Origin: a virus | Direction: 5' to 3' (one strand) | Virus record (IMG/VR): IMGVR_UViG_3300048088_000336 | Coordinates: 1-64,000 of that record | DNA length: 64,000 bases | In this document: positions 1-21,485 of the stretch, in pieces | How positions within the stretch are numbered: position 1 is the stretch's first letter | Layout of the letters: each line of letters starts with the position of its first letter | Notes under the pieces: generated by a model | The model's input: the letters and a program-made list of their open reading frames with translations, nothing else | Told to the model about the DNA's origin: nothing | Database searches by the model: none | Position numbers and translations under genes: made by a program

Positions 1-45
1 CTACTTCCGTGGCACATTGGCACCGATCTTGCCCCGGAGGTGTGC

Positions 46-1806
46 GTGGCCCGTCGTCGTCTTCTCCCGGCTCTACGCCAGGCGTTCACTAGCGCGTCGA
101 ACTCCGGGGACCTCGACACCCGCATCGTGTCCGGCCCGTCCGGGTATGTGGTGCCCGGTCAGCCCTACCCGGTGGACTGGTCCGTGGACCGGGCGGTGCG
201 TGAGGGCTACTCGTGGAACCCCTACATTTTCCGGTGCGTCGAGTTCGTCGCCGCCAACGAACGCGCCCGCCGCATGGTGCTCCGCGCTGATGACCCCGAC
301 ACCGGGCCCATCATCGAAGCCGACACACAATCCCGGGAGCAACGCCGGGTCCTGCGCGTCCTAAACCGTCGGGCGAATGAGTGGGAGATCGCCCAAGTGT
401 GGCGGCACCGATTGACCGCCCAGTTCATGCTGTCATCCCGTGGGGTGTTCGTTGAGGCTGTCCGTACCCGCTCCGGTGGTATCCACTCCGTTTACCTACT
501 GGACCCCGATCGGGTCCTGCCCGTCCCCGGTCGCCGAAAAAAAGACCCGAATGACCCGAATGAGCGCGGTGTCGTCGTACCCATCGAATCGTTTCGGGTG
601 GAGACCGCTGTAGCCAACGGCGCCCCCCACTGGGATTGGCGTCCCCCGTTCGACCCTGATGCCACCGCCGAAACCCAGCCATCGGGCATCGTGTGGTTGC
701 GTTCCCCGCACCCCACCATGTTCGAGCGGGGAATGAGCCCCGTGGAGGCGGCGGGACTGTCCGCTGACCTCGACAGATACGCCAGATTGTATAATCGGCG
801 TTTCATGATGGAAGACGGTCGCCCCGGTGGGGTCCTCGCCATCAAGGGCGACCTCGACCCTGCTTATGAGGAGATCCTCGCCAACCGGTTCCGGGGCGGA
901 CCGGATGTCGCGAACTCCCGCACCACCGTCATCCAAGCCGACGACATGGCTTGGACCGACACGTCAGGAACCCCGCGTGACACCCAGTGGGGTGACACGA
1001 TGGATCGGACGAAACGCGAGATCTGTGTCGCGTTCGGATTACCCGAATCGGTGGTGTCCGATTCGTCGGGGGAAACGTTCGACAACTCCGATGCTGATTA
1101 CGCGAAAGCGTGGGAGCATTGCATGTTGCCGCTTTTCCGGTTGCTTGACGGGCAATTGGATGTGATCTCCCCCGGTGGTTATGACGACGACACGTTCCTC
1201 AACCATGACGTGTCCGACGTGTGGGTGCTGGGGCGGCACAAACGCGCCGAGGAAGACCGCGCGGCCGCCGACCTGGACCGGGGCACCATCTCGATCGACG
1301 AGTACCGGGAGATTTGTGGCCGGGACCCGTGGAATGTGCCCGCGACCCGCGTCCTGTGGATCCCGGCCGCTCGGTTGGCTGTCGACGACGGGGAGGCCGC
1401 GCACGACGGGGACGCTCAGGCCGCGTCCACCGCACCGATCGGCAACGGCCAGTTGGGTGCGGCTGGAATGTCCGGGGGTGCTGGTGCGATGGGTGGTGCT
1501 GGGGTTCCCCCCGCGTTGCCGCCCGGGTTCGGGGTGGACCCCGATGCGGACCTCGACGGCGCCGGTCAGGGCACGGGCTCCGTTCCGATCCCCGGCGCAC
1601 CCGGCGTGCCAGTACCGGGGGCGGCCGTACCGGGACCCATGCCGCGCCCAGCGCGCCCCCCAGCGATCGGTGGTGGTGGCGGGTTCGGTCCGCCGAGCCA
1701 GCGTGCTGAAGCCCAGCAGGGCCGGATCGTGCCCGGTGGTGGTTTGACGCAGGTCAAGAGTGCGGAGGGTGAGCAGAGCGGGGGGCGACCTCCCGCTCGC
1801 CGCTGA
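46..1806 (+). CDS. Portal protein
   Basis: Probable HK97/SPP1-type portal, the dodecameric ring at the capsid vertex through which DNA is packaged and the tail is attached. The 586-residue length fits. The N-terminal third reads as a portal (NPYIFRCVEFVAANE, then a DPDRVLPVPG strand region and a DLDRYARLYNRRFMM helix), followed by VAFGLPESVVSD and a core of usual portal type. The last 130 residues are a Gly/Pro/Ala-rich tail of low complexity. I chose GTG at 46 because GGAGG ends 5 bases before it; GTG at 40 overlaps that site. It precedes the MuF-like gene, the usual portal neighbour. Unusually, no terminase lies just upstream: TerL is on the opposite strand near 58 kb. The call rests on sequence feel and context; no single diagnostic motif decides it. 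Confidence 0.85.
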   Translation: MARRRLLPALRQAFTSASNSGDLDTRIVSGPSGYVVPGQPYPVDWSVDRAVREGYSWNPYIFRCVEFVAANERARRMVLRADDPDTGPIIEADTQSREQRRVLRVLNRRANEWEIAQVWRHRLTAQFMLSSRGVFVEAVRTRSGGIHSVYLLDPDRVLPVPGRRKKDPNDPNERGVVVPIESFRVETAVANGAPHWDWRPPFDPDATAETQPSGIVWLRSPHPTMFERGMSPVEAAGLSADLDRYARLYNRRFMMEDGRPGGVLAIKGDLDPAYEEILANRFRGGPDVANSRTTVIQADDMAWTDTSGTPRDTQWGDTMDRTKREICVAFGLPESVVSDSSGETFDNSDADYAKAWEHCMLPLFRLLDGQLDVISPGGYDDDTFLNHDVSDVWVLGRHKRAEEDRAAADLDRGTISIDEYREICGRDPWNVPATRVLWIPAARLAVDDGEAAHDGDAQAASTAPIGNGQLGAAGMSGGAGAMGGAGVPPALPPGFGVDPDADLDGAGQGTGSVPIPGAPGVPVPGAAVPGPMPRPARPPAIGGGGGFGPPSQRAEAQQGRIVPGGGLTQVKSAEGEQSGGRPPARR

Positions 1807-3139
1807 CGAGCTTCCCGACCTGGATCCGGCGCAGCTCATGGTGTTCGAGGCACCCCCGGACCCGCCAGCGGGCCCGATCCGGGACGCACTCGCGGATGAC
1901 GGGTCGGCCCGGATCGACCGGGCGGTGGCCCTGATGGATGCGGCGATCAGCGGGTACAACGAACGCTTGGCCAGTGTCGTCGAGGCCCGGATGCGCAGCC
2001 CGAAGACCCGTAGGGGCACCCGCTTCTGGACCCAGGCATCACCCGATGGGGTGAAGTCCGTATTTTTCCGAGGGGTAACCGACTCTTCTGCACATATAAG
2101 CCCCGTAGGGGTCGAGCTAAAAACCCTCGACGCGTCCTACGTCCTCCCGGAGCGCACCGTCGACGAACTGGCTGACGTCGTCCGCCCCGTGTGCCTGCGC
2201 ATCGTCGCTGATGCCTCCGGCAGTGTCGCCAAGGCACTCAAACGCCCCAACACTGGTCTGGCGGCGTTCGACTGGTCCGACATTGCCGCCACTGTTGATG
2301 ACGCCGTGAAACGCATGCTGGAGGTCAACGAACGCCACGCCCGCGACATCAGGGGCGAGATCCTCCGCGCCGACTCCGACGCCGAGTCCCTGTCGGTGGC
2401 GATCGACCGGGTCACCGAAGCCACCCGGCGCGGTGGCCGATGGCTACTGCTGGCCGGGCGCACCCTGGCCACCGCGCTCGCCGGGGACGCCGCACTGGGT
2501 GCCGCCCGCGCTCTGGGGGTGACTCACACGCAGTGGTTGACCCGCCACGATGACCGGGTGCGGGAAACGCACCGGAAGGCTGATGGGCAGCAGCGGCCGG
2601 TGGGAACAAAGTTTCAAGTCGGCGCCTTTCGCCTGCGGTTCCCCGCCGACCCCGAAGTCCTCCCCGAGGGTGCGCGGGAGGTGTACGGATGCCGCTGCTC
2701 ACTACTGTTCGCCCCACCGTCCCCGCAGCGCGTCAAAGCGGTCGCGTTGGCCACCCGGGGCACCCCGACCGCCGCGAGGGGGCTACTCCGTGCCGCAGCA
2801 GGCGACGACAACCCAGCATTGGTGCTCGGAGCACCAGAACTGGGTGCAGGCATGTCCATTCCAGCAGTGCCAGTGCCCCACGATGTTGTTGGCTACCGGG
2901 CGCTCGGCGCGGCGATCCCGGTTGCGCCTGGTCAACAAATCTCGTGGCCGGGACCACTCGCGTTAGCTTTGGCGCCCCCGGTGGTGGCCGGTGCGGCCGT
3001 GCTGGCGGTGGTGATCCCAGCGGGCGCGATCGTGGGGGTTGCGGGTGGGGCGGCGGTACTAGCTGCGGGTGTGGTGCTGTCAGTAGCGTCGGTGAGCGCT
3101 GGTCAGGTGGTGGCTACACCGGTGGTTCCTGCCGCTTAG
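1760..3139 (+). CDS. MuF-like minor head protein
   Basis: Phage Mu gpF-like head morphogenesis protein, a minor capsid protein that acts with the portal and is often injected. The diagnostic C-terminal MuF core is visible around residues 255-315: THTQWLTRHDDRVRETHRKADG, then a conserved EVYGCRCS segment. The N-terminal 250 residues are mostly helical. After the core, residues about 395-459 form a long Ala/Val/Gly-rich hydrophobic stretch that could be membrane-active, which is unusual for the family and might serve DNA ejection. The GTG start at 1760 overlaps the portal gene by 47 bases with a modest AGG upstream; GTG 1769 is a possible alternative. The end overlaps the convergent gene at 3114-3608. 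Confidence 0.85.
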   Translation: MRRVSRAGGDLPLAADELPDLDPAQLMVFEAPPDPPAGPIRDALADDGSARIDRAVALMDAAISGYNERLASVVEARMRSPKTRRGTRFWTQASPDGVKSVFFRGVTDSSAHISPVGVELKTLDASYVLPERTVDELADVVRPVCLRIVADASGSVAKALKRPNTGLAAFDWSDIAATVDDAVKRMLEVNERHARDIRGEILRADSDAESLSVAIDRVTEATRRGGRWLLLAGRTLATALAGDAALGAARALGVTHTQWLTRHDDRVRETHRKADGQQRPVGTKFQVGAFRLRFPADPEVLPEGAREVYGCRCSLLFAPPSPQRVKAVALATRGTPTAARGLLRAAAGDDNPALVLGAPELGAGMSIPAVPVPHDVVGYRALGAAIPVAPGQQISWPGPLALALAPPVVAGAAVLAVVIPAGAIVGVAGGAAVLAAGVVLSVASVSAGQVVATPVVPAA

Positions 3140-4304: not shown

Positions 4305-4320
4305 CATCGAACTGTTGGGC

Positions 4321-4375: not shown

Positions 4376-4397
4376 AGCCACCCGACAAGGGAGCCAC

Positions 4398-6477: not shown

Positions 6478-6836
6478 CCGCCGAGTGCGCGCCCGGGTGC
6501 GGCGCCTGCTGCGAGACGGTGGTGATGGTCGTGCCCCCGGAGGACATGGAGGGACCGTCGGGGCCGTTCGCGCGGGAGCACTGGCACGTGTTCGAGAAGC
6601 TGGACAATCCCGAGTCGCCGACCGGGATCGAATACCACCTGCGGTGTGACCAGTTCGACCCGCATACTCGACGCTGTGGGGCGTACGCGGTGCGGCCACC
6701 GATCTGCGCGAACTACCCCCACTACGGGTCACCCATGAAGCCCGGCCACTCGAAGGCCGACGCGATCCCCCTGGTGTGCGCGTTCCAAGCTGATGTGCGC
6801 CGGGTTCTGCCCCTGGTGGCGATCAATGGCCGGTGA
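6474..6836 (+). CDS. YkgJ-type cysteine-cluster protein
   Basis: 120 residues. The CxxCxxCC-type N-terminus (CAPGCGACCE) and the C-terminal signature CGAYAVRPPICANYPHYG are those of the UPF0153/YkgJ family, which is thought to hold a zinc or iron-sulphur cluster. The role is unknown. The GTG start overlaps the previous stop and the end overlaps the next gene by 11 bases, so it is co-transcribed with the LigT-domain gene. Confidence 0.8.
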   Translation: MTAECAPGCGACCETVVMVVPPEDMEGPSGPFAREHWHVFEKLDNPESPTGIEYHLRCDQFDPHTRRCGAYAVRPPICANYPHYGSPMKPGHSKADAIPLVCAFQADVRRVLPLVAINGR

Positions 6837-8724
6837 ACCCGAGGTGGTCGCTACTGAGGCGCCGTCACCGACGGATGACCCGGCCACCGGGCACACCGGG
6901 GGCATGCTGGCCCTGGTCCCCGACAATGTCGACGAACTCGCCGTCGAGGGTGGCCTGCCACCGGGGGAACTGCACCTGACGTTGATCTACCTGGGTGATG
7001 ATGTGACCACCTGGCCACCCGAGCAGACCGCGCACCTCAAAGCCCTGATCCAAGCCAGCGGACCGGGGTTGGATCCGGTATCGGCCCGCATCATGGGTCA
7101 CGCCCTGTTCAACCCCGATGGGGGTGCTGCCGGGGACAAGAATCCGTGCGTCGTCTACCTGGTGTCCGACACGCCCGACCTGGAACCCCTGCACAAATGG
7201 GCCACCTGGACGACGACGACGGGCGAGAATTACCCGACCCCGCCACCGCAGCACACCCCGTTCATTCCGCACATCACAGCGGGGGAGGACACCGGGGTCG
7301 ACGAGTTGTCCTACACCGGGCCGGTGCGGTTCTCGACACTGCGCCTGGCGTTGGGTGATGAGGTGACCGACGTCCCGTTGGGCGGCGGCGATCAGGAGGC
7401 TGACGTGCCCGGAGTTCAAGCGAAGTCGATCACGTTTACGCCCCCGAAAGCGGTCCGGGACGCCGCGTGGGACCTCGACGGGCCGGTCGCTGCTGATGTT
7501 GTCGAGGGCAAGGCCCTGGACGGTAATGGTTTGGCGTGGGTCGCGGCGCACTGTGGGCAGGCCGGTCGGGACTGGGCGCGGGACATGCTCGGTCGCGTCG
7601 AGGTCAAAGCCGACATGAACATGGGCCGGTACGCGGGCGGGGAGCACCCGAAGCTGGACAGTATCGAGGCCCTGCACAAGGCGGTGGAGGAGCACGGAAA
7701 CTGCCCCCCGGAGGACCGTCCGGCGCGGGTCCGCAAACTGCGGGCGCGGGCGAAGGAACTCGGTGCCAGCGCACACACCTACTCCCGGATCGACACCCTG
7801 GAGGGGGCGAGCACCGACGGGTCCGGGATCAAGGATGTCGACGACGGTGATGTGGAGTTCAAGTCGTGGGCGCCCGGCAACTCGGAACCTTCACCGATCC
7901 CGCACCTGGCCGCGTTGGGGCAGGCGATTACCGCGCATCCGAAGGTGCGGGACTCGCACAAGGCCAAGCACAAGAAGCATCTGGCTGCTGAGGCGCAGCG
8001 CCTGGGCGCGGGACCGGACGTGCACGCGAAGATCGGGTACCTGGAACCGCACTCGTTCTTCAATCAAACGAAATCCTTGGACGACTACGATGTCGAGTTC
8101 AAGGTCACGTCACCGGCGCCGGGGGCGTCGAGGTTGCGGGAGTACTGGGCGCGTAACCCGAAGGGCCGCGCGAAGTGGCGTCCCGGTAGTGGTGGGGATT
8201 TCAAGCGCCTGCGCCGTCATCTGGCGAAGTACGTGCACAATCCGAAGATCCTTAATGGGTTGACGGCGAACATTCACAAGATGGCCACCGGTGTGTGGCC
8301 TGGTAAAAACGCGCACACGATCCGGGAGAAGCCCGGTAAACCACTCACCTACGGAATCAAATCACTGGTCGCGTGGGAATCGGTGGAGCAGAAGACCGCC
8401 GCCACCGATGTGGACATGGCGGAGTTGTTCGCCGGGATCGAGGACTGGGGGCGCGAGTTCGTCACCGACGACGCGGAGGCCTACTTGGCCGCGCTGGCCG
8501 AAATCCAGGGCGACACCCCCGACGATGACATCGAAGCCCCCAGTGATGTGGAGCGCACCGCCGCGCTGGCCGCGCTCGGCGCGAAACTGGTTACCGACCC
8601 GGACCCGCAGGTTGAGGTGTCCGACAATGTCCAGGACACCGCACCGGACACCCCGGACATCGAACCGGGTGACCTGGCCAGCTTGTTCACTGATGCCCCC
8701 CCGGCTGTTGAGGCCCCAGCGTGA
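6826..8724 (+). CDS. LigT/2H phosphoesterase domain protein
   Basis: 632 residues. Residues about 20-190 look like a LigT/2H phosphoesterase: two His-x-Thr motifs, HLTL (His50) and HITA (His149), in the right order and spacing, with strand segments LHLTLIYLG and RFSTLRLALG after each. 2H enzymes open cyclic phosphodiesters or hydrolyse 2'-5' bonds; the phage Acb1 anti-CBASS enzyme has the same two-motif layout. The remaining 440 residues are helical segments of a phage type, including RPARVRKLRARAKELG and DFKRLRRHLAKYVHNPK, followed by an acidic tail. ATG 6826 is preferred to ATG 6793. The stop overlaps the start of the giant gene (GTGA), so both lie in the head operon and may be packaged together. 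The substrate is unknown. Confidence 0.75.
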   Translation: MAGEPEVVATEAPSPTDDPATGHTGGMLALVPDNVDELAVEGGLPPGELHLTLIYLGDDVTTWPPEQTAHLKALIQASGPGLDPVSARIMGHALFNPDGGAAGDKNPCVVYLVSDTPDLEPLHKWATWTTTTGENYPTPPPQHTPFIPHITAGEDTGVDELSYTGPVRFSTLRLALGDEVTDVPLGGGDQEADVPGVQAKSITFTPPKAVRDAAWDLDGPVAADVVEGKALDGNGLAWVAAHCGQAGRDWARDMLGRVEVKADMNMGRYAGGEHPKLDSIEALHKAVEEHGNCPPEDRPARVRKLRARAKELGASAHTYSRIDTLEGASTDGSGIKDVDDGDVEFKSWAPGNSEPSPIPHLAALGQAITAHPKVRDSHKAKHKKHLAAEAQRLGAGPDVHAKIGYLEPHSFFNQTKSLDDYDVEFKVTSPAPGASRLREYWARNPKGRAKWRPGSGGDFKRLRRHLAKYVHNPKILNGLTANIHKMATGVWPGKNAHTIREKPGKPLTYGIKSLVAWESVEQKTAATDVDMAELFAGIEDWGREFVTDDAEAYLAALAEIQGDTPDDDIEAPSDVERTAALAALGAKLVTDPDPQVEVSDNVQDTAPDTPDIEPGDLASLFTDAPPAVEAPA

Positions 8725-11700
8725 CCACCACATTCCCTGATGACATCGAGGTGTCCGGGGACGTCCCGGACGATCTGACCGCGCTGGAATGGAAGTCCCT
8801 CCCGGCCGGTGAGACGTCGTCGCCGCTGACGGGGGTCATCGACCACAACGACGCGGACGGCACGATCACCGCACTGGTCGCGGTGACCGGGGTGAAGGAT
8901 TCGGTCGGGGACGTCATCGTGCCCGGCAGTGCCGATAAAGCGGTGAAGCGATTGAAGCCCAAGGGGGTGATGTCACACAACTGGGGGGATCGGGTATCGC
9001 GACTGATTTGGCATAAGGAACTGATGCCGGGTGACTCGATGTTGCCGAAGCAAACACCCCAGGGTGACCCGTGGCCCGCTAACGCGGGTGGTTTGCTGAT
9101 CAAAGCGAAGTACAATCTTGATAAGCAATCCGGTCGGGACGCTTACGCGGACGCGAAATTCTATGGGGCCGATGAGTGCTTCTCGATCGGCTACAAGGTG
9201 CGTCCGGGCGGTTCCCGGATGCGTGGCGCGACCCGGTATTTGCATGACTATGACCTGTACGAATGGTCACAGGTGCTTCACGGGGCTCACCCGTTGGCGA
9301 CTTTGACCGGCGTGAAATCCCTTGCAGACACTGTTGAAGCACCGTGGTACGATGGCACCCGTTCCGGTGACATCGAGGGGGATACCGCTTTGCCCGACGG
9401 TGTAGAAACCAAGGTCCGTGTCGTACGTGACGCGGACTTCTGGCACCTGCCCATCGGCACCCCCATCAAGCCCGGCATGGTCCCCCACGGCCTGAACCGG
9501 CCCCCCACCGAGCAGGAGATCCACGCCACCACCGCCGACGCCGGGGACGACAACGGTCTCCACGGGGCCCCCGACGCCGTCGCCACCCCCGGGATGCCCG
9601 GTGCGCCCGCCCCAGGCGGGCTCGGCATGCCCCCCATGCCGGACATGGCCCTGCCCATTCCCGGTCCGAAAGACGGGGACGCACCCACTGGTGACCCCGA
9701 TGCCGCTGTCGCGTTGTTGCGCACACGCGTGGGGGAGATCGAGAAACTCAACACTCCCGCCGCCCGGACCGCTAGCGCGGCACTGACTCCGTTCCTCGTT
9801 CCCGGTGCCCCGGTGCGCGCATCGGAGGATGGGCAGCTCGTCGCTGTGCACACCGGGGACGCGTGGCGGTTCGCTGACACCGCCAACGGTGGCGTCATGC
9901 AGGTCACCCTTCCGGGCACCCTGCCGCAACCCAACGTCGACATGGTGCTCCATGAGCTGGCCGGTGTCGGCATCCCGTGGGATTCGGTGGACGCACGGCG
10001 CAAGCGGTGGGAAAACCCTTCCCAGCTCCAAGCCGACAAGGCGACCGTGGCGGGCATTTTCGCTCGCGCGGGCACCCCGCCGACCACAACCCCGCCGGGC
10101 ATCGGTGGCGCTGGCATGGGCACCCCGCCACCGCCCGGCGTTCCGGGTGCGCCGGGGGCGGGACAGGGCGCTCCCGGCGCCCCACCCGCTACACCGGGGA
10201 TGCCGAACGCTTCTGTGGGTGCACCGCCGAGCATTCCCGCTACACCCGCACCGGCCCCCAACGTCCCCACAGCGCCCCCCACTCCGACTGTCCCAGCTAC
10301 GCCACCGGTGTCACCGAAGAAGTTCCCCAGGGGCTCAATCAAGGGCCACGGCATCGCCCCCGGTGACCGGATCCGGGTGCACGGGCACCCGAGGGGCACC
10401 CTGGAAGGCACGGTCGAGTCCGGCAAGAACGGGCACTCGATCGTTCACGATGACGGGTCGAAGACGTGGCTCGGTGGCACCGGGTCACGCCATCACGTGG
10501 AGAAGCTCGGCAAGGCCGCCGACCAGCCACCCAAACTCGCCACAGCATCGGCCGCGCCCCCAGCGTCGAAACCTGCACCGGAGCGCAAGCTGGCGTTCGC
10601 TCGATTCGACCGGATCGAGAACGTTCATGACCTCCCTGGCGCGATCCGAAGCGCGATCCTAAAACCGGACACCCTCGACAATCCGGCGCGCAGGCAAGCT
10701 CTCGCCGTCGCCCTGCACTCGTTGACAGAACCAACCGCCCCGAATAAACCCCCCGCCAAAGCTCACGTCCCTGACGATGTTGACCCCGCCGCGCTGGCCG
10801 ACGAATTAGACGGACTCGCCCAAGAGATCGAAGATCGCGGCAAGGGCCGCATAGCGATCACCCCCGCCCACCGAGGATCCGGCCGCACCGTCGTCGCCGA
10901 CCTGCGCGCGTTGGCTGCGGGGATCCGCACTCCCGCTGCGTCCGCCCCGGAGTCAGCGAAACCCCCTGCCCCAGTCGTCCCGGAGCCGTACAAGCCCACC
11001 GGCAACATCAACGCCCCCCATGAGCTGACCGACGAGCAGCTCGCCACTGAGGCCGCGCACGCCGCTACCCGGCACGCCCGTGCCCGTGCCAGTGGTGTCC
11101 CGAAAACGTCGGTGGAGCATCACGACTCGAAACTGGCGAACACCGTTTTCCAGGACGAGATCCGGCGTCGTGCTGTGGGTGGCGAGTCCGGGGTCAAACC
11201 CGCACCCAAACCCGGGCCCCCGGCCGCGCCGGAGACCCCAGCCGTCCCGGACAAGACCGGGGAAGTCCCCGAAGACGCACCCGATACCACGGTGCCCCTG
11301 CCGCAGGAGGCCGTGGATTCCGCTGACCGGATCCGTGCCGAGGCACTCGGCATCATCGACGGACCTGACGGGCAAGAGGAAGTCACTCCCGAGGTCGCCG
11401 ACCGGCAGGACCGCGTGGAGGGCTACCTCGTCGCCGGGGAAGCCGCCCTGGCCGATAAGACCGATGGGCAGCTCAGTGAAACCCGCAAAGACCTGACCGA
11501 CGAGCTGGCGCTTCAGGATGAGCTGAATCGCCGCGACACACAACGGCGCAAAGAGAGCGCCGCCGCCCGCAGTAGCCGATCCAGCAGTACGGCCGACCCC
11601 GTCAGGTCGGGCGACACCCCCGGAGCAACGGGCGACGGCACCCCCGAGGATACCGGCCCGAAACTACGTCCCGGTTTCGCTGGCGCCGCCGAGGACCTCG

Positions 11701-14700
11701 GCGACGCCCTGAACGCGAAACCCCGCGATGACGAGACGGTGAAAGCCGCCGCCGACCGGTTCGCGAAAATGTTGCGCCGTCACGGTGACTCAACCTCGTT
11801 CGACGCGGTCCGCACCGCCATCGGGGACGACATTCACGCCGCCATCGCGTCGGGTGACCTGAAGGCGGGGATGCTGTTCACCGCCGCTGGCGGTGTCCGG
11901 GAGCAGCGGCGGGTCGCCCGCAATGAGGGCGCGAAGAAGCGCCGGTTGGCGAAGCGCCTGGACCGGGATCGGATCAAGGCCCTGATCGGGTCAGTGGACG
12001 CGGAGGTCCGGGCCCGGAAGGATCGCGGCAGCGGTGCGGCGGCACCCAAGCCATCCCCGGCCCCGAGCGTCGCCGCATCGCCCAAAACGGGTCAGGGAAT
12101 CACCGCCACCGCCCAACACAACGCCGACGGCGGTGTCCACTACCTGGTTACGCACCCCGACGGGTCGTACACCACTGCCCGCTACAACTCCACCGGACCC
12201 CGCCGCACCCACGCGAGCACCGTGGACCGGGGGCCCGGCCTGAAACCGAACTCCGGTGGCCGCTACATCACGTCGATTCACTCCTCGGAGGAGTCCGCCG
12301 ACCAGTCGCACGACGCGTTCCCCAACGTCCCGCACATCGTCACCCCCATTGAGCACATCGGGGAGACCGGCAAGGCGGAGACTCCTGTCGTACCGGAAGC
12401 TTCCGGCCCGCGCGCCGATGCTGAGCAAGCCATCCGCGACGGTGACCGTATCGCCCTGGTCGATGCCCTTAAGGCGATGGGGGACACCGGGCCGCGTGAG
12501 ACCGCGATGCGCCTGCTGTCCCTGTCCGAAGACGACGCGATCACCGAACTCGATGACCATCCTGGGAAACGGGAAACAGCCAACCGCGCGGACCGCCATG
12601 CCGCCGCGCAGGTCGCTAACGCTGCCGGTGACTCCGCTGCCCTGACGGCCGCACTCACGGGGGAGCACCGCAAGCCTGACAATGCGCTGGATTCCAGGGA
12701 TGCGGCGGCAGCGCGGGAACGGGCCGCCGCTAAGCGCGCAGCGGTCAAGCCCGCCGTCGTCGTCGCTGACGGGCCGTCGAGGAGGGCGGAGTTCGACGCG
12801 TCCACCGCTGAAGACTTCCCCCCCAACACCCCGGTTCGACTGTTTCAAGACTGGGATCGAGAGCATGCCCGACCCGACCTCGCGAGCGACGTTACGGCGG
12901 TGCGCCGTGCCCGGAATGGCTACGTCACCGTGCGGGAATCGAAGGGCACGACAGTCGATGTTTTCCCGCGCCAGTTGGAGAAGCGCGATCAGGGTGCACA
13001 ATCGCCGCAGAAGGATGGAGGCGACGATGCCCAACGCGCTAGCGACACAAGCCGAAGCGTGGTACCAGAAGTACCAGCCGCAGACCTACGCGGGGATAGT
13101 AGACAAACCGAAGTTCTTCCAGGACCTGGCCGACCGAGCCCAGGAGCAGATCACCCAGGTCGCGGACCGGTTGGCGGGCCCGGACCAACCGGGGGAGACA
13201 TACCGGGACAAACTGGGGCGCCTGACAGCGGCACAACACGACGCGACGGAACTGGTGATGAGGGACTTCCTGGAAGCCCCACCGCCCCCGAACTGGACGG
13301 ACAGTCCCCTGCCGAGCCCGCCGAGCCCGGACCCGTCGATGCTTCCCGAGAAGACGGACCCGTGGGGGGACGCGATGGCGGACTTCGGGAACGCGAGCGC
13401 GGAACTGGATCAACAGAACCGGGTGACGAGGCAGCGGGAACTGCCGATACTGCCCCCGCGCCCGAGCCGGACAGTGCCGACGGCGTAACCGCCGAGCAGC
13501 CGGAGGCCGACACCGGGCAGGTAGATGCGATCCCCGACACCGGGGAGTCGTTTCACCCGTCGAGTGCTGATGATTTCGCGCCCGCCGGGAAGCGGGCGAA
13601 ACTGGATGCGAACCTCGCCGCCCTGCGGGTCCTGCGCCAGTTGCAGACCGAGCACCGCTCCGCCACCCCGGAGGAGCAGAGTGTCCTCGCCCGTTGGGCC
13701 GGGTGGGGTGGCCTGCCGGAAGTGTTCGACGACAAGAAGACCGCCTATGCGAAGGAACGCGACGAACTCCGTGGACTGCTGTCCGGTGGCGAGTGGAATG
13801 AGGCGAAACGCAACACCCTCAACGCGCACTACACATCGCCTGTCGTGGTGCAAGCACTGTGGAAGGCGATGGGTGATCTTGGATTCGACGGGGGGCGTGT
13901 ACTTGAGCCCGGTTCCGGGTCAGGCACCTTCATCGGCTACGCCCCCGAGGGCGCCGACATGGTCGGGGTCGAACTGGACTCGACGACCGCTGCGATCTCT
14001 CGTGCCCTCTACCCGCACGCGACGGTAAGGAACGAATCGTTCGCCGACACCCGGCTACCGGCCGGTAGCTTCGATGCGACCATCGGCAACGTGCCCTTCG
14101 GGGACTTCGCCCTGCGGGATCGGGTGCACAACCCCAACCGCGCCGAGTCGATCCACAACCACTTCATTCTCAAATCCCTCGCGTTGACCAAACCGGGTGG
14201 CATCGTCACTGTCCTGACCTCCCGGTACACCCTCGATGGCGAGAACCCCCGGGCCCGAAAGAAAATGGCGGAGATGGGGGACCTGCTCGGCGCGGTCCGC
14301 CTGCCCACCGGTAGCCACTCCAAAACCTCCGGTACCGACGTCATCGAAGACGCCCTGATCTTCCGGCGTCGTGAGCCGGGCGCGGATCCCCTCACCCCAC
14401 AAGACTGGATCAATTCCAGTAAACGCGACATTGACGGGATCGAGATCCCCGTCAACGACTACTTCACCGCGCACCCCGACCAGGTCCTCGGCGACGAGCA
14501 CGCCGAGAAGGGTCAGTACGGCAGCGGGTCCCTCATCGTGACCGGTGACAAGGCGATGCCGGAGCTGCCCGCCGCTCTGGCTCGAATCACCGACGGGGCG
14601 AACACCGCTGGCGCCACCGCTTCGGCGCGCATGGAAGGCCTCGCCGACTTCACCGCCCCCGACGACACCCGCCACGACGGGCACATCGCCGCCCACGACG

Positions 14701-17700
14701 ACGGCAGTTTCACCCAGGCCTCCCAAGGCGCGGCCGTACCGTTTGCGGTACCGGAGAAGCAGGCTGAGGAGTTGCGTGGCCTGATCGGCATGCGCGACAC
14801 CCTGTCGACCCTGCTCACCGCCGAATCCCAGTCCGTGTCCAACTCCCCGGAGATCCGGGAACTGCGCAAGACACTGAACGACCAGTACGACGCCTACGTC
14901 AAACGCTACGGGCCGATTAACCGCTACACCCTGACCAAGTCGGGGGCCCGCAACGCTCCCGGTCAGGGCGGGTTCCGGCGTGACCCCATGTCGGCGATCG
15001 TGCGGGCCCTGGAGATCTACAACCCGGAGACCGGCAAAGCTGTTAAGACCGACATCTTCACCAAACGGTCCGTGTCCCCCCGGGAGATCCCCACCCACGC
15101 CGACAACCCCGAGGACGCACTGGCGTTGTCCCTGGACACCTACGGGGAAGTCAACCTCGGTGAGATCGCGAAAATGTTGCACACCGATGAGGCCACCGCC
15201 CGCAGACGTCTCGGTGACCTCATCTTCGAGCAGCCACCGCTGACCGATGACGAACTCGACAAGTCGTGGACCGCGCACCAGGAAGACCACGGGGGTATCC
15301 CTGACCAGGACATCGCGGCTGGGACCGTGGACCTGTCCTCGGTCGGCGAGTCGGTCCGGGCTGAGGGCAATCTCGAACCGGCCGCCGCCTACCTGTCCGG
15401 CAACGTGCGCCGCAAACTGGCCGCCGCCGAAGCCGCCGCCGCGCACGATCCCCGGTTCCAAACCAACGTCGACGCGTTGAAGAAAGTCATCCCCGCTGAT
15501 CTGGGGGTCGATGAGGTCGACGGCCGGTTGGGTGCCGCGTGGATCCCCGCTGATGACGTCAAAACGTTCATGATCGACCTGTTGCACGGTGGCGACAACC
15601 GGTACAACCCCGTGCAGGTGTCCACCTCCGGGGGTGGGATCTGGACCGTCGTCGGGGGCGATCACGGCAACGTCGCCACCGAACAGTGGGGCACGAAACG
15701 GAAGTCCGCTGGTGAACTGATCGCCGCCATGCTGGAGCAGAAACCGATCCGTGTAGTGGACACGATCGACGGGAAGTCCTACCCGAACCTGGAGGAAACC
15801 CTCGCGGCGCAGGCGAAGGCCGACGAGATCTCCGAACGTTTCTCCGAATGGTTGTTCGAGGACTCCGCGCGCACCAAACGTCTCCTGGCCGCCTACAACA
15901 ATCAGTTCAACGCGGTCCGGTTGCGGTCCTACGATGGTGTGGATCGGGTGTTCCCGGGGATGACGTCGAGCGGGTGGAAACCCCGCGCGCATCAGGTGGC
16001 GGCCGTCAACCGGATCGTCTCGGAACCGTGTGCGCTGCTCGCCCACGTGGTGGGTGCGGGGAAGACCGCTGAGATGGCGATGGGTGCCGCCGAACTCAAA
16101 CGCCTGAGGATGGCGCGCAAACCCGCGATCGTGGTGCCGTCGCACATGCTGGAGCAGTTCACCCGCGAGTACCTCCAAATCTATCCGAGGGCGAAGATCC
16201 TGGCCGCTGGCACGGAGGACCTGGACGGGGATAAGCGCCGGGAGTTCGTGGCGCGCGCCGCTACGGGGCAGTGGGATTGCGTCATCCTCACCAAGGATGC
16301 GATGCAACTCATTCCCATGAGTCAAGACGCGCAGAAAGCCTACATTGATCGTGAAATGGCCACGATGCGCGCCCAGTTGGAGGCCGCGCAGGGCAGTGGT
16401 GGGGACGCCGCGCATCAAGCGACCGTGAAGAAAATGGAAAAGGCCGTCATCAAGGCTGAGGAGGCCCTGAAGGCGAAACTGGAGAAGACGAAAGACGCGG
16501 GGGTGTCTTTCGAGCAGACCGGCATCGACTACCTGTTCGTCGATGAGGCCCACCAGTACTCGAACCTGCGGACCGTGTCCAACATACAGGGCGCGGGGGC
16601 GTCCGGGTCGGGTATCGCCACCGACCTGCACATGAAGATCGAGCACCTGCGGGCCAACAATGAGTCGGGCCGGGTGGCGACGTTCGCTACCGGCACACCG
16701 ATTCGTAACACCGTGACACAGGCATACATTATGCAACGGTTCATGCGCCCCGACCTGCTGAAAGAAGCGGGGGTGCATTCGTTCGACCAGTGGGCCGCCA
16801 CGTTCGGGCAAACCGTTGACGAGATGGAACTCAAACCGGAGGGCACGGGGTTCCGGCAGACCACCCGGTTCGCGAAGTTCCGCAATGTGCCTGAACTGCT
16901 GCGCCTGTTTCAGATTTTCGCGGACGTCAAGACCGCTGAGGACCTCAACCTGCCCACCCCGGACCTGGCCGGTGGGTCGGTGGACAATGTGGTTGTCCCG
17001 AGCACCGATGAGCTGCGGGAGACCATGGCGGAGTTGGCGCACCGCGCCGACCAGTACCGGGCGGGGTCCCCGGAGAAGCGCACCAACGCGGCCGGTACCG
17101 GTGAAGTCGACGACATGATGCTGCTGATCAGCATGGATGGTCGCAAAGCCGCGATGCGCCAGTCGGACAAACTGGACATGGCGGCGGAGAAGATCGCGGA
17201 CATCTGGGGAAAGAACAAGAACAAGCCCATCCCGAAAGACTTGGATGACCCCACCGCTGGGGATGACCCCCCACCCGGTGGGATGCAAATCGTGTTCTGT
17301 GACATGTTCACCCCCAAGGGTGGCGCCAAGAGTGACGTCGAGCAGCGAACCGAGTACGACGACGGGGACAACTTCGACGCCTACGCTGCCTTGCGGGCGA
17401 AACTGGCGGACCGGGGCATGGATCCGAAACGGATCCGGTTCATGCACGAGGCCAAGAATGACCGTCAGAAGGCCGAACTGTTCGCCGCCGCACGCAATGG
17501 TGGCCTGGATGTTCTCGTCGGCTCCACGGAGAAGATGGGGGTCGGTACGAACGTCCAGAGACGCGCGGTGGCCCTGCACCATTTGGATGCCCCGTGGCGC
17601 CCCTCGGATCTTGAGCAGCGTGACGGCCGGATCATGCGCCAAGGCAATGCCAACGACGAGGTCTCAATCCACCGGTATGTCACCGAGGGCTCATTCGACG

Positions 17701-19781
17701 CCTACATGTGGCAGACCCTGGAACGCAAAAAGAAGTTCATCGACCAGATCATGGGCGGCAGCCTCGACCAGCGGGAGATCGAGGACGTTGGTGAGACGGC
17801 CCTGTCCTACGCTGAGGTCAAGGCGCTGGCGACAGGCAACCCCCTGCTGTTGCAGAAGGCCACCGTCGACACCGCGATCGGGAAACTGTCCCGCCTGGAG
17901 CGCACCCACAACCGCACCCAAACCAACCTCCGGCGTGACGTCGTCGCCTTCCGGGCCAACGCGGAAGCCTCCGACGCCTACGTCAAAAAAATGGACGCGG
18001 CCGTCAAAGCCCGCACTGACATCACGGGCGACAACTTCGCGATGACCGTGCACGGCACCACCACCCGCGACCGGGGTGAGGCCGCGTCCATGCTCAAAGC
18101 CGCTGTCGAGGACGTCATCCGCAACGACTACGGGTACGGGAAGCGGGCCAAGCCCGTCGCGGAGTTCGGTGGACACAAACTGATGGCCACCGTCGAGGAT
18201 CATTACGACCGCAATGGGGCCCGCCGCCGTGGCGTGACCTTGACCTGGGACGGGGTGCCCGGGGGTGCGAGTGGTGGTAACGCGACCGCCGCGTCGATCA
18301 GCTACCAGCAGCTCGCCAGTGGTGGCATCGGGCAGGGCACCCTGGCGACGCTAGCGCATTCCCTGCACTCCTTCGAGTCGCACCGCGACATCTCCGCTGA
18401 TCACGCCACCCGTTTGCGGTCCGAAGCGGATGTGATGGAAGCCCGGGTGGGCACCGAGTTCCCGCACGCGGGCGCACTGAAAACCGCCCGGGATGAGTCC
18501 GCCCGGCTGAAGGCCACAATGGAGGCATCCGGGATCCGGGAGGACGCCGGGCCCGGTGAGTCGGACGCGGCGAAGAACTTGGCCACCGCGCGGACGAAAG
18601 CCGCTGGGCAGGCCGCCCGCATGGGCCGCTCCGGTGGAAACGCGGCCACCACGCTCAAGAGGTTCGGGAACTCCACCGCCACCCCCGGCGCGGTGGCCTC
18701 CCCCAACGGCGCGGTCGGCGCGTACATGCACAACGGGGACTTCAAAGTGTTCCTGACCGATGACGGGGTCGATGTCCGGGACCTGGCCGGGATCTCCTCC
18801 GATGACCTCAAGGGTGTGGTCAAGGACCCGCAGGGGTTGGTGGATGACCTGGCGAAACTGGACCTTCCCTTCGATGAGGGCGCGCGCTCCCTGTATCGGC
18901 GTTGGAACGGGGACTACTCCTACAGCCCACCGGACTACTCGAAGTCCTACGAGGAACGGGAAGCGATCGCTCAAGCCAAACGGGACAAGCTCAAAGCTGG
19001 GGAGACGGCCGACAAGAACGCGATCAAGGCTGTGTTCGCGCGGCACCTCACGGACGCACCTGTTGAACCGGAACTGACCGGGGTCGACGCCGCGAAACGG
19101 GCCGCTGCCCGCGCGGCGGAAAACGACCGCATCGGGGACCTGGCGAAGAAGCGACTGAAGCGGTTCGCGAAAGCCAGTAAACGCATCCCCCACTACGCGT
19201 CCCCCGACGGGAAGATCGGGGCCGTCACCGACACCGATGGCGGGCTGGAGTTCTTCGCCACCGGCAACGGCATGCTGCTCAACGCCCCCGGTTCGGTGGG
19301 GCCCGTCGATGACCCGCAGGCCGTGGTCGATGAGATCGCCGCACTCGGTGTGCCCCTGGGTGATTCAGAAGTCCGGTATGAGCGGTGGGGGCGTGGGGAC
19401 GGGCAGCAAAATGAGGACGTGACCGCGATCCGGGGCATCCTCACCCGGCATGCTGACCTCATGGGTGAGAAGTCGGCGATCATCGGGGCGTGGGAGTTGC
19501 TGCGCGCGCAGCGCCTCGACATTGAAGTGAAGGCCCGCGCGGACCGGGCGGCTGGGGAGGTCACCCCCACCCCGGACCCGGAACTGGAACCGTTCACGGT
19601 GCTCGTCGCCGATGACGTTCGCTACACGATGGACGCATCCGGGACCCTGCAACGTCTCATGCCGTGCCCGGCGTGCGGTCAGGAGATGATGGTGCCCGCG
19701 TTCGGGGAGTCCGAGACACCACCGTGCCCCTCGTGCGGTGCGGTCCCCACTGTGGACAAGCGCCGGGCACCGGTGGGTTGA
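8721..19781 (+). CDS. Prohead protease fused to DarB-like methyltransferase-helicase
   Basis: 3,686-residue protein in one open frame. Residues about 25-215 are an HK97-type (S78) prohead protease: His86 in VMSHNWGD and Ser155 in ECFSIGYK are the expected catalytic pair. A long Pro/Gly/Ala-rich linker with small basic domains runs to about 1,620. Residues about 1,620-1,910 are an N6-adenine methyltransferase, with motif I LEPGSGSGTF (Glu1729) and NVPF at 1790-1793 in place of NPPY. Residues about 2,400-3,050 are an SF2/SNF2-like helicase: VVGAGKT (Lys2448), DEAH at 2608-2611, ATGTPIRNT, and QRDGRIMRQG from 2966. Two related domains follow (about 3,312-3,398 and 3,479-3,562), then a CPAC/CPSC zinc ribbon at 3,649 onward. 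The methyltransferase-helicase part matches the phage P1 DarB type of polyvalent protein, which enters the cell with DNA and blocks restriction. It lies where the protease belongs, just before the capsid gene. Whether the protease cuts itself free is unknown. Confidence 0.9.
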   Translation: MTTTFPDDIEVSGDVPDDLTALEWKSLPAGETSSPLTGVIDHNDADGTITALVAVTGVKDSVGDVIVPGSADKAVKRLKPKGVMSHNWGDRVSRLIWHKELMPGDSMLPKQTPQGDPWPANAGGLLIKAKYNLDKQSGRDAYADAKFYGADECFSIGYKVRPGGSRMRGATRYLHDYDLYEWSQVLHGAHPLATLTGVKSLADTVEAPWYDGTRSGDIEGDTALPDGVETKVRVVRDADFWHLPIGTPIKPGMVPHGLNRPPTEQEIHATTADAGDDNGLHGAPDAVATPGMPGAPAPGGLGMPPMPDMALPIPGPKDGDAPTGDPDAAVALLRTRVGEIEKLNTPAARTASAALTPFLVPGAPVRASEDGQLVAVHTGDAWRFADTANGGVMQVTLPGTLPQPNVDMVLHELAGVGIPWDSVDARRKRWENPSQLQADKATVAGIFARAGTPPTTTPPGIGGAGMGTPPPPGVPGAPGAGQGAPGAPPATPGMPNASVGAPPSIPATPAPAPNVPTAPPTPTVPATPPVSPKKFPRGSIKGHGIAPGDRIRVHGHPRGTLEGTVESGKNGHSIVHDDGSKTWLGGTGSRHHVEKLGKAADQPPKLATASAAPPASKPAPERKLAFARFDRIENVHDLPGAIRSAILKPDTLDNPARRQALAVALHSLTEPTAPNKPPAKAHVPDDVDPAALADELDGLAQEIEDRGKGRIAITPAHRGSGRTVVADLRALAAGIRTPAASAPESAKPPAPVVPEPYKPTGNINAPHELTDEQLATEAAHAATRHARARASGVPKTSVEHHDSKLANTVFQDEIRRRAVGGESGVKPAPKPGPPAAPETPAVPDKTGEVPEDAPDTTVPLPQEAVDSADRIRAEALGIIDGPDGQEEVTPEVADRQDRVEGYLVAGEAALADKTDGQLSETRKDLTDELALQDELNRRDTQRRKESAAARSSRSSSTADPVRSGDTPGATGDGTPEDTGPKLRPGFAGAAEDLGDALNAKPRDDETVKAAADRFAKMLRRHGDSTSFDAVRTAIGDDIHAAIASGDLKAGMLFTAAGGVREQRRVARNEGAKKRRLAKRLDRDRIKALIGSVDAEVRARKDRGSGAAAPKPSPAPSVAASPKTGQGITATAQHNADGGVHYLVTHPDGSYTTARYNSTGPRRTHASTVDRGPGLKPNSGGRYITSIHSSEESADQSHDAFPNVPHIVTPIEHIGETGKAETPVVPEASGPRADAEQAIRDGDRIALVDALKAMGDTGPRETAMRLLSLSEDDAITELDDHPGKRETANRADRHAAAQVANAAGDSAALTAALTGEHRKPDNALDSRDAAAARERAAAKRAAVKPAVVVADGPSRRAEFDASTAEDFPPNTPVRLFQDWDREHARPDLASDVTAVRRARNGYVTVRESKGTTVDVFPRQLEKRDQGAQSPQKDGGDDAQRASDTSRSVVPEVPAADLRGDSRQTEVLPGPGRPSPGADHPGRGPVGGPGPTGGDIPGQTGAPDSGTTRRDGTGDEGLPGSPTAPELDGQSPAEPAEPGPVDASREDGPVGGRDGGLRERERGTGSTEPGDEAAGTADTAPAPEPDSADGVTAEQPEADTGQVDAIPDTGESFHPSSADDFAPAGKRAKLDANLAALRVLRQLQTEHRSATPEEQSVLARWAGWGGLPEVFDDKKTAYAKERDELRGLLSGGEWNEAKRNTLNAHYTSPVVVQALWKAMGDLGFDGGRVLEPGSGSGTFIGYAPEGADMVGVELDSTTAAISRALYPHATVRNESFADTRLPAGSFDATIGNVPFGDFALRDRVHNPNRAESIHNHFILKSLALTKPGGIVTVLTSRYTLDGENPRARKKMAEMGDLLGAVRLPTGSHSKTSGTDVIEDALIFRRREPGADPLTPQDWINSSKRDIDGIEIPVNDYFTAHPDQVLGDEHAEKGQYGSGSLIVTGDKAMPELPAALARITDGANTAGATASARMEGLADFTAPDDTRHDGHIAAHDDGSFTQASQGAAVPFAVPEKQAEELRGLIGMRDTLSTLLTAESQSVSNSPEIRELRKTLNDQYDAYVKRYGPINRYTLTKSGARNAPGQGGFRRDPMSAIVRALEIYNPETGKAVKTDIFTKRSVSPREIPTHADNPEDALALSLDTYGEVNLGEIAKMLHTDEATARRRLGDLIFEQPPLTDDELDKSWTAHQEDHGGIPDQDIAAGTVDLSSVGESVRAEGNLEPAAAYLSGNVRRKLAAAEAAAAHDPRFQTNVDALKKVIPADLGVDEVDGRLGAAWIPADDVKTFMIDLLHGGDNRYNPVQVSTSGGGIWTVVGGDHGNVATEQWGTKRKSAGELIAAMLEQKPIRVVDTIDGKSYPNLEETLAAQAKADEISERFSEWLFEDSARTKRLLAAYNNQFNAVRLRSYDGVDRVFPGMTSSGWKPRAHQVAAVNRIVSEPCALLAHVVGAGKTAEMAMGAAELKRLRMARKPAIVVPSHMLEQFTREYLQIYPRAKILAAGTEDLDGDKRREFVARAATGQWDCVILTKDAMQLIPMSQDAQKAYIDREMATMRAQLEAAQGSGGDAAHQATVKKMEKAVIKAEEALKAKLEKTKDAGVSFEQTGIDYLFVDEAHQYSNLRTVSNIQGAGASGSGIATDLHMKIEHLRANNESGRVATFATGTPIRNTVTQAYIMQRFMRPDLLKEAGVHSFDQWAATFGQTVDEMELKPEGTGFRQTTRFAKFRNVPELLRLFQIFADVKTAEDLNLPTPDLAGGSVDNVVVPSTDELRETMAELAHRADQYRAGSPEKRTNAAGTGEVDDMMLLISMDGRKAAMRQSDKLDMAAEKIADIWGKNKNKPIPKDLDDPTAGDDPPPGGMQIVFCDMFTPKGGAKSDVEQRTEYDDGDNFDAYAALRAKLADRGMDPKRIRFMHEAKNDRQKAELFAAARNGGLDVLVGSTEKMGVGTNVQRRAVALHHLDAPWRPSDLEQRDGRIMRQGNANDEVSIHRYVTEGSFDAYMWQTLERKKKFIDQIMGGSLDQREIEDVGETALSYAEVKALATGNPLLLQKATVDTAIGKLSRLERTHNRTQTNLRRDVVAFRANAEASDAYVKKMDAAVKARTDITGDNFAMTVHGTTTRDRGEAASMLKAAVEDVIRNDYGYGKRAKPVAEFGGHKLMATVEDHYDRNGARRRGVTLTWDGVPGGASGGNATAASISYQQLASGGIGQGTLATLAHSLHSFESHRDISADHATRLRSEADVMEARVGTEFPHAGALKTARDESARLKATMEASGIREDAGPGESDAAKNLATARTKAAGQAARMGRSGGNAATTLKRFGNSTATPGAVASPNGAVGAYMHNGDFKVFLTDDGVDVRDLAGISSDDLKGVVKDPQGLVDDLAKLDLPFDEGARSLYRRWNGDYSYSPPDYSKSYEEREAIAQAKRDKLKAGETADKNAIKAVFARHLTDAPVEPELTGVDAAKRAAARAAENDRIGDLAKKRLKRFAKASKRIPHYASPDGKIGAVTDTDGGLEFFATGNGMLLNAPGSVGPVDDPQAVVDEIAALGVPLGDSEVRYERWGRGDGQQNEDVTAIRGILTRHADLMGEKSAIIGAWELLRAQRLDIEVKARADRAAGEVTPTPDPELEPFTVLVADDVRYTMDASGTLQRLMPCPACGQEMMVPAFGESETPPCPSCGAVPTVDKRRAPVG

Positions 19782-19821: not shown

Positions 19822-20129
19822 GGGCTGGGGTTACTCGCCCCAGCGGGGGTGATTTCACTGTAGCGGCGTGTCGGGCTCGCGGCCAGTCGTGAACGAAAGA
19901 CGCCCCCAATGTGGATCGGGGGCGCTTCCGGCTGGACTCACTACTCCACCGACGGAGATAGTGGTTCCCACCGTACGCGGCGTGGCGCGCGCCCCGCCAG
20001 CCGAATCGGTGATCTACTCCGCTCCACGCGCCTGGTGCTGACCGGTGCGAGTCATTCCGGGCACGCTGCCGGGGGCCTCGCGCTGCCCAGCTCGTGCTCA
20101 CTCACACCGAGCACACAGGAGGGGCGGAA
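19822..20129 (+). other. Leader region upstream of the capsid gene
   Basis: No gene is seen in this stretch. It holds the second hairpin (19901-19924), an imperfect dyad CACTACTCC/GGAGATAGTG near 19939-19962, and a GC-rich run to the capsid ribosome site AGGAGGGG. A promoter for strong capsid expression is expected here, but I could not identify a convincing -35/-10 pair. Confidence 0.5.
19901..19924 (+). terminator. Second hairpin upstream of the capsid gene
   Basis: CGCCCCC (19901-19907) pairs with GGGGGCG (19918-19924) around a 10-base loop. It may be a second terminator or a leader-RNA structure. Confidence 0.5.
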
Positions 20130-21485
20130 GTGCCCGACACACTGACCCACCACGACAAAGATTTGATTGATCGTGGGCGGGCTGAGGTCAAGAGCCTCAA
20201 CACCAAACTGGATGAGATCACCAAGTCTGGGTGGCTGGACGGCGACGGCAACATGCACGTCGAACCGGGTGCCCTCGCGGAGTTCAAGTCGACCCTGGCC
20301 GCCGCTGAGGAAGCGCACGGCATCGTCGCCGCCCTCGAACGCAAAGGCGCCCTCGATGCGTGGCTGGACGCCCCGGCGACGGATTCCCCGGCCGCGTTGG
20401 CCGCTGGGCAGGCCGGTGGCGGCAGTCAGCTCATGCGCCCAGCGGAGTACAAGTCTTTGGGGCAGCGGTTCATTGAGTCGACCGAGTTCAAGGGCCACCG
20501 TGACTCCGGGTTCATGGACTCCGCTTTCGTTGTCGAAGACCAGGAGATCACTTACGGGGCGCAGTTCAAGGACGTGCACTCCGGGTCGATCGGCACCGTC
20601 ACCCACCCCGGTTTCGGCACGGTTCAGCGCGCACCGATGGTGTCGGCGCCGATGCTCACCTGGCGGGTGCGTGATCTTTTCCCGCAGATGAACACCAACT
20701 CGGTGATGATTGAGTTCATTGAGGAGTTGGGGTTCGTCGACGCGGGCGACAATGCCGCCGCGATGGTGCCCGAACGTGAGGGCACACCACCTACGGACAC
20801 GTTCGGTCTGAAGCCGAAGTCAACGATTCACTTCAACATCAAGACCACGCCGATTCGGACCCTGGCGCACTGGGTTCCCGCGTCCCGCAACGTGCTCGAT
20901 GACGAACCGCAGTTGCGGGGAATCATCGACACGCGCCTGCTGTACGGCCTGCGCCTGGTCGAGGACCAGCAGTTGCTGCTGGGTGACGGCACTGGACAGA
21001 ACCTGCTCGGCATTTTCAACACGCCGGGTATCCAATTGTTCCCCTCCGGCACCTACCACGCGCCCACCAACGAAACGTATGTCGACGCCATTCGCCGGGG
21101 TGCGACTCGCGTCATGCTGGCACAATACGACCCGACCGGCGTAGTTGTTCATCCTTACGATTGGGAAAGGATGGAGCTGACCAAGGACACCCAGGGCCGG
21201 TACCTGGTTGCCGGGTCGGTCACTTCCGGTGCCGAGAAGCGTTTGTGGCAGATGCCCGTGGTCGCCACCCCCGCGTGCCCGGAGGGCACGGCCCTGATTG
21301 GTGCGTTCGGTTTGGGCGCGCAAGTTTTCGACCGGATGCAATCCAATATCCGCACCGCTGACCAGCACGCGGACTTCTTCATTCGTAACGCGATCGTGGT
21401 CCTGGCGGAGGAGCGGCTCGGTTTGGCCGTGTACCGGCCCGCGTCGATGGTGAAGGTCAACCTGGCCGCCGCGATCGCCGCCTGA
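20130..21485 (+). CDS. Major capsid protein (HK97 fold)
   Basis: 451 residues. The N-terminal 100 residues are charged and helical (DLIDRGRAEVKSLNTKLDEI), like the HK97 scaffolding delta domain that the prohead protease removes. The rest has the HK97 capsid look: FGTVQRAPMVSAPMLTWRVRDLFP, PIRTLAHWVPASRNVLDD, DTRLLYGLRLVEDQQLLLGDGTG, and a C-terminal EERLGLAVYRPASMVKV strand. GTG at 20130 is 5 bases after AGGAGGGG, a very strong ribosome site, as expected for the most abundant protein. The protease domain lies in the gene just upstream. Confidence 0.92.
   Translation: MPDTLTHHDKDLIDRGRAEVKSLNTKLDEITKSGWLDGDGNMHVEPGALAEFKSTLAAAEEAHGIVAALERKGALDAWLDAPATDSPAALAAGQAGGGSQLMRPAEYKSLGQRFIESTEFKGHRDSGFMDSAFVVEDQEITYGAQFKDVHSGSIGTVTHPGFGTVQRAPMVSAPMLTWRVRDLFPQMNTNSVMIEFIEELGFVDAGDNAAAMVPEREGTPPTDTFGLKPKSTIHFNIKTTPIRTLAHWVPASRNVLDDEPQLRGIIDTRLLYGLRLVEDQQLLLGDGTGQNLLGIFNTPGIQLFPSGTYHAPTNETYVDAIRRGATRVMLAQYDPTGVVVHPYDWERMELTKDTQGRYLVAGSVTSGAEKRLWQMPVVATPACPEGTALIGAFGLGAQVFDRMQSNIRTADQHADFFIRNAIVVLAEERLGLAVYRPASMVKVNLAAAIAA

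Follow-up and report, generated by a model that had tools for sequence, protein, structure and literature searches.

The window, a 64,000-nt stretch of DNA with a GC content of 66.9%, belongs to the 79,462-base record of an uncultured virus (IMG/VR record IMGVR_UViG_3300048088_000336). Its head region (Table 1) contains a giant gene whose GTG start overlaps the stop codon of a 2H-phosphoesterase-like gene and which ends about 310 bases 5′ of the start of the major capsid gene. As originally predicted, the giant gene occupies the normal protease slot, with the capsid gene directly downstream. Inside the head cluster, a DUF932 protein (2e-25) is encoded at 4113-5348 (+), between the MuF and 2H genes. 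The capsid gene is followed by genes for tail sheath, tape measure and baseplate, and the virus is therefore a contractile-tailed phage. The gene for the terminase large subunit (56828-58366, minus strand) is distant from the portal and capsid genes. Two adjacent minus-strand ORFs, 59233-61173 and 61008-62459, match the same stretch of the phrog_1967 helicase family and apparently form a tandem helicase gene pair.

In one chain, the product of the giant gene combines an S78 prohead protease with a DarB-class LPD36/N6-adenine methyltransferase/SNF2-type helicase. The predicted single open frame of 3,686 residues was recovered with exact coordinates and a GTG start. As protease, methyltransferase and helicase are unrelated enzymatic domains in one chain, the product is a polyvalent protein. 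The nearest S78 relatives outside IMG/VR come from Gordonia, Brevibacterium and Streptomyces phages and from actinobacterial plasmids, which suggests an actinobacterial host for the window phage; a scan of genome contigs with S78 returned four Streptomyces loci only. We took a 1,195-aa antisense ORF (14055-17642) to be an artefact of high GC content.

Table 1. Features of the head region and of the giant protein, with related features in other loci (L numbers are survey labels; the arrow marks a putative cleavage position)
Feature	Coordinates	Strand	Basis
Portal protein	40..1806	+	Pfam Phage_portal 2.4e-32
MuF-like head morphogenesis protein	1760..3139	+	Pfam PF04233 8.4e-5, PHROG phrog_2468 1.9e-15
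2H-phosphoesterase-like head-region protein	6793..8724	+	PHROGs 2H/RNA ligase 9e-30
Giant fusion gene, 3,686 aa, 392 kDa, GTG start	8721..19781	+	Single open frame, 3,686 codons
LEWK25↓SLP, possible N-terminal cleavage site	8784..8804	+	Fits E-x-K↓S pattern of capsid delta domain
S78 prohead protease domain, residues 41-199, His86 and Ser155	8841..9317	+	PHROGs, tblastn, model
Predicted self-cleavage site TGVK199↓SLAD	9306..9329	+	K199 invariant in 24 relatives
'PIGT' module VETK↓VRVVRDADFWHLPIGTPIKPGM, residues 228-253	9402..9479	+	Profile hits in head-region proteins
Repeat domain copy 1, residues 349-456	9765..10088	+	Profile
Helical middle domain, residues 864-1101, family-specific	11310..12023	+	40-73% identity among giant S78 proteins
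Nested +1-frame gene, 153 aa, TnpV-like	13027..13488	+	Homologues, own Shine-Dalgarno
LPD36 motif (GWGG, residue 1661) and N6-adenine methyltransferase (EPGSGSG, NVPF)	13518..14690	+	PHROG, motif alignment
SF2/SNF2-type helicase (VVGAGKT, DEAH, TGTPIRN, QRDGRIMRQG)	15918..17810	+	Motif alignment
Repeat domain copy 2, residues 3310-3401	18648..18923	+	Profile
Repeat domain copy 3, residues 3478-3583	19152..19469	+	Profile
C-terminal zinc ribbon CPACG...CPSCG, residues 3649-3673	19665..19739	+	Sequence
HK97-fold major capsid protein, N-terminal delta-like region	20094..21485	+	Pfam Phage_capsid 5.9e-40
MuF-methyltransferase-helicase fusion of L103	3514-11919		MuF-like head protein
'PIGT' module in relatives	L009 8212, 9357; L006 4066, 5334; L005 1641, 4199, 11611; L007 7608; L103		

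The N-terminal domain had been assigned to the S78 prohead proteases, with His86 and Ser155 in the active site, and this assignment was upheld. The profile search proposed for it gave a divided result: Pfam found no match in the S78 region even at E 10 and the NCBIfam HK97-protease match to the protein (2.7e-7) was sub-threshold, whereas PHROG phrog_80 ('head maturation protease') matched residues 40-206 at 1.3e-17. Close relatives of this domain match Pfam PF04586, and in tblastn its identity to Gordonia and Brevibacterium phage proteins annotated as capsid maturation proteases is 44-50%. The AlphaFold model (AF2) is confident over residues 45-198, with pLDDT >90 for most of this stretch, and the predicted fold matches T4 gp21 (5jbl, Z 10.7 over 125 residues) and herpesvirus assemblins (Z up to 8.6, VZV protease). 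We therefore retain the S78 identity despite the Pfam miss, since PHROGs, tblastn and structure resolve it. The active-site motifs are intact: H86 and S155 are invariant in 24 diverse relatives, together with E100, D60, D64, R172, D178, E181 and K199.

The part downstream of K199 (the cargo, about 3,490 aa and 370 kDa) carries, within residues 1600-3100, the LPD36 motif, a gamma-type N6-adenine methyltransferase and an SF2/SNF2-type helicase, and PHROG names it DarB-like antirestriction (E=0). The presence of LPD36, a gamma-class N6-adenine methyltransferase and an SNF2-type helicase in one chain places it among DarB-like proteins. Both predicted enzymes were found again. The methyltransferase has a TP-type motif, EPGSGSG and NVPF at 1789-1796, and this catalytic tetrapeptide is the NVPF of Arthrobacter, Streptomyces and plasmid homologues, not NPPF; motifs I, Ia, II, III, V and VI of the helicase are all present and align with those of the BcepMigl and VvAW1 phage proteins and of plasmid homologues. 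Outside the giant family the closest sequences are actinobacterial plasmid helicase-related proteins (44-47% over about 1,550 aa). Searching PDB sequences with the methyltransferase-helicase part returned no match.

A repeat of about 95 residues flanks the cargo on both sides. The window protein has one copy after the protease and two at the C-terminus, so the 'duplicated C-terminal domain' described earlier was correct for the two C-terminal copies and had missed a third; the other complete members have one copy per end by profile. The middle domain, predicted to be helical, is common to all giant S78 proteins including those of L020 and L031, which are devoid of the methyltransferase-helicase. 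No phage or plasmid homologue of it was found by tblastn, its model gave no viral fold match, and none was found in 396 genomes of the phylum in a search run without a positive control. The zinc ribbon that had been noted is present in the sequence; its matches to zinc-ribbon profiles are weak.

The complete domain order was also found in four other distinct IMG/VR records (3300049324_000034, 3300036773_000096, 3300036803_000072 and 3300044842_000203; survey labels with this architecture are L101/L013, L105/L003, L104/L016 and L106, with L001 partial), giving five complete fusions with that of the window. A further record, 3300037069_002635, keeps the first part of the order, and 3300036799_000036 encodes a protein identical to that of 3300036773_000096. 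An assembly error joining two genes, or a sequencing error that merged them, was ruled out, as the fusion recurs in independent metagenome assemblies. Four of these records (77-122 kb) have a single S78 match and a single methyltransferase-helicase match, each lying within the fusion, and the window's own record has one S78 match. For the S78, middle, methyltransferase and helicase regions pairwise dN/dS was 0.12-0.39; the values were 0.13-0.65 for the linker that includes repeat 1 and 0.43-0.68 for the C-terminal region. The giant fusion is under purifying selection.

Part of the linker, around residues 1436-1589 of the giant protein, overlaps the nested +1-frame gene, which has a GGAGG (13017-13021) five bases 5′ of its ATG. 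The nested protein is 38-43% identical to TnpV-like proteins encoded upstream of actinobacterial plasmid helicase genes. The gene is kept in all fused relatives, in L103 and in a Micromonospora plasmid, always +1 relative to the helicase frame. Within the overlap, identity is 58/90 in the nested frame versus 43/91 in the giant frame, and the giant frame shows unusual conservation at its synonymous codons. Because the nested frame is the better conserved one, this part of the linker is overprinted on another gene, as a by-product of it. Such overprinting may be the route by which fusions to methyltransferase-helicase cargo arise. We think it probable that the nested protein acts as a small partner to the methyltransferase-helicase. 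We rejected an equivalence to P1 Ulx: there is no similarity, and the P1 ulx gene lies downstream of darB.

We then considered where the protease might cut. The original prediction had placed self-cleavage after about residue 215-250; self-cleavage is plausible, with K199-S200 a likelier site than this interval and K231 a second candidate. K199-S200 is an order/disorder boundary at which the confident AlphaFold model ends. In the 80-locus survey, 66 ORFs carry a hydrophobic-K-(S/A/T/E) motif, nearly always at Ser+44/45 from the catalytic serine, and most survey ORFs have the xVK↓S/A form at this distance. From sequence and model, K199-S200 is the best candidate, and conservation of K199 may instead be structural. 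The same holds for LEWK25↓SLP, which may be structural rather than a cleavage site. The capsid delta region (residues 1-125) contains three E-x-K motifs where 0.22 are expected, including a predicted cleavage site, AEYK120↓SLG, at the position of the known HK97 cut. The 2H-like protein encoded upstream also has several hydrophobic-K↓S sites, with K↓S sites enriched, and its phrog_6439 domain adjoins S78 in L021 and L024; on these grounds it is a possible further head protein that is packaged and processed. In related phages 2H is fused to S78 itself. Auto-removal of a C-terminal propeptide is documented for the SPN3US prohead protease (PMC10052503).

Just C-terminal to the protease lies the short 'PIGT' module (VETKVRVVRDADFWHLPIGTPIKPGM), with the consensus ExK...VRDxxxWGxPxGTPIxPGM. 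Its profile matched head-region proteins of Gordonia, Brevibacterium and IMG/VR phages at 3e-13 to 1.6e-4, and the reversed-sequence control gave nothing better than 0.4. Instances were found in Gordonia GMA6 Orf13 (annotated ADP-ribosyltransferase) and Orf14, Chidiebere gp26 (annotated VIP2-like ART) and gp27, DalanDe gp21, gp22 and gp27, Cantare gp11 and L103. An E-x-K occurs at most 14 residues upstream of the module in 21/22 instances, compared with 6% of random stretches; the 22 instances (one marginal) are mutually related, so that these are not 21 independent events. The module is a candidate head-loading or processing tag. A broader and tentative possibility, which we hold to be doubtful, is that head effectors of actinobacterial-type phages share a loading/processing code. 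In such a code, the E-x-K site and VRDxxxWGxPxGTPIxPGM would mark internal proteins for the head (ADP-ribosyltransferase-type, MuF-type and S78 giants), and the S78 giant would be a self-cleaving polyprotein that carries the DarB cargo and matures its fellow effectors.

The same cargo was also found on another head protein. In L103 (IMGVR_UViG_3300036806_000040) a MuF domain, encoded just downstream of the portal gene, carries a cargo that shares 57% identity over 1,768 residues. By eye, the middle part of the L103 protein has ADP-ribosyltransferase-like motifs, for which a Pfam search gave no confirmation. Conversely, S78 carries other domains. A survey of S78 fusions, as had been proposed, showed that all 39 related S78 proteins match Peptidase_S78 and that 32 carry 2H (21/39) or NUDIX (11/39) enzymes. 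Many such proteins are annotated only as 'NUDIX' or '2-5 RNA ligase', and the protease is therefore hidden. L020 encodes a 3,143-aa protein (6535-15966) with S78, the middle domain and a C-terminal HELGHH zincin-like stretch (by eye), without the methyltransferase-helicase; the version in L031/L032, of 2,044 aa, has S78 and the middle domain. A Streptomyces phage-plasmid encodes the methyltransferase-helicase on its own, in a 6,289-aa gene flanked by those for the portal and an S78-2H protein. One cargo on two vehicles and different cargoes on S78 are as predicted if the head protein is a carrier. S78 proteins with NUDIX or 2H domains occur in Streptomyces phages and phage-plasmids (L008, L097, L096, L030-L074). 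Gordonia phage DalanDe gp27 (L005, 11644-16545), a 1,633-aa 'capsid maturation protease', has about 1,100 residues before S78, a layout opposite to that of the window protein.

The shell protease is the probable carrier because it is built into one protein with cargo of the kind that P1 injects. We consider it likely that the giant is a self-delivering polyvalent protein, in which S78 loads the DarB-class cargo into the prohead and cuts itself loose, the cargo then being injected. The S78 domain would co-assemble with the capsid precursor like HK97-type proteases and so bring the 370-kDa cargo into the prohead. At maturation it would cleave the capsid delta region at AEYK120↓SLG and cut its own chain after K199, with K25 and K231 as possible additional sites, freeing the cargo in the head. 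The cargo would exit with the DNA and methylate or track along the incoming molecule against restriction, as is believed for P1 DarB. Of the carrier idea in the original prediction, the fit with the S78/MuF cargo swap and with 2H and NUDIX on S78 is good; packaging, cleavage and injection, and antirestriction by the cargo, we infer. GFP fused to part of the HK97 gp4 protease is encapsidated, according to work cited in PMC11626933. Several points count against the carrier model: HK97-type proteases are many-copy, and a 392-kDa version is a heavy load; K199 may be kept for structural reasons; and the linker overlap is better conserved in the nested frame than in the giant one.

S78 might merely process the protein, another signal such as the PIGT module or the repeats recruiting it. 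The module does occur in head-region proteins without S78, and P1 DarB uses a short N-terminal signal. Nevertheless, in the profile scan the module was missing from most S78-2H and S78-NUDIX proteins, the layout of which is the same; S78 cargo thus does not need it, and we regard a purely processing role as rather unlikely. The fusion could also act inside the producing cell: made late, it would lose its protease by clipping, and the methyltransferase-helicase would modify progeny DNA before packaging. Cis-cleavage would split the halves wherever it occurred, and close homologues of the cargo reside on conjugative plasmids, which have no virion. The head-operon position, the alternative MuF vehicle and the virion location of P1 DarB make such a role quite improbable.

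It could further be argued that the S78 and helicase genes are functionally separate and that the frame across the TnpV-like gene is open through GC-richness, making the fusion a read-through by-product. In line with this, the overlap is conserved mainly in the nested frame, and the frame is open even in plasmids with a separately annotated helicase. However, no in-frame stop separates S78 from the cargo in any fused genome, over about 490 indel-rich linker codons, and no stand-alone start equipped with a Shine-Dalgarno was found near the methyltransferase boundary. In addition, the same repeat domain follows both S78 and the helicase, and the cargo has been independently fused to MuF. A by-product therefore seems very improbable.

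If the self-delivery reading is true, a shell protease itself delivers very large anti-defence enzymes, and the dosing and release of cargo are explained without extra recruiting proteins such as P1 DarA. The natural S78/MuF cargo swaps offer a direct handle on protein loading into phage heads, and the protease-cargo junction a ready template for putting proteins into capsids. The general idea of a packaged effector on a capsid peptidase has been partly published before. New are the N-terminal S78 on a DarB-type cargo, the nested +1-frame TnpV-like gene and the short module of head-region effectors; the literature searched, which lay mostly outside subscription journals, yielded no account of a DarB-type protein with S78 at its N-terminus.

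Among known systems, P1 DarB and DarB-like proteins (phrog_10089; Iyer et al. 2017, PMC5512222) have the same LPD36-like motif, N6-adenine methyltransferase with NxPF and SNF2-type helicase, also encoded in the head region. P1 DarB is a 250-kDa head protein present in about 40 copies, for which a 30-residue N-terminal capsid-targeting sequence suffices (PMC9024508), and DarA and Hdf are needed for loading the other proteins (PMC12810830). DarB is encoded by a separate gene beside those for portal and protease, relies on this short sequence and the DarA/Hdf helpers, and has NPPF, whereas in the window the protease is fused N-terminally and the tetrapeptide is NVPF. Actinobacterial plasmid helicase-related proteins share 44-47% identity and the TnpV-like partner but have no head vehicle, their plasmids being conjugative or mobilizable. 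The L103 fusion has the same cargo (57%), on MuF instead of S78, and its nested TnpV-like gene occupies an identical relative frame. Assemblin-like peptidases were described in polyvalent proteins, always C-terminal and with a processing role (Iyer et al. 2017, PMC5512222). These likewise place a prohead-type peptidase in a multidomain early effector, but in all fused members described here S78 is N-terminal, where it would release everything downstream. NUDIX fusions to MuF, portal and a capsid-processing serine peptidase were described in a 2022 survey, which proposed that they are packaged and injected (PMC9503650). These NUDIX fusions and the 2H-S78 fusions of Streptomyces phage-plasmids likewise put an effector enzyme on a capsid serine peptidase. 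They carry a single small enzyme in proteins of 570-880 aa, in contrast to the cargo of about 3,490 aa borne by the window protein.
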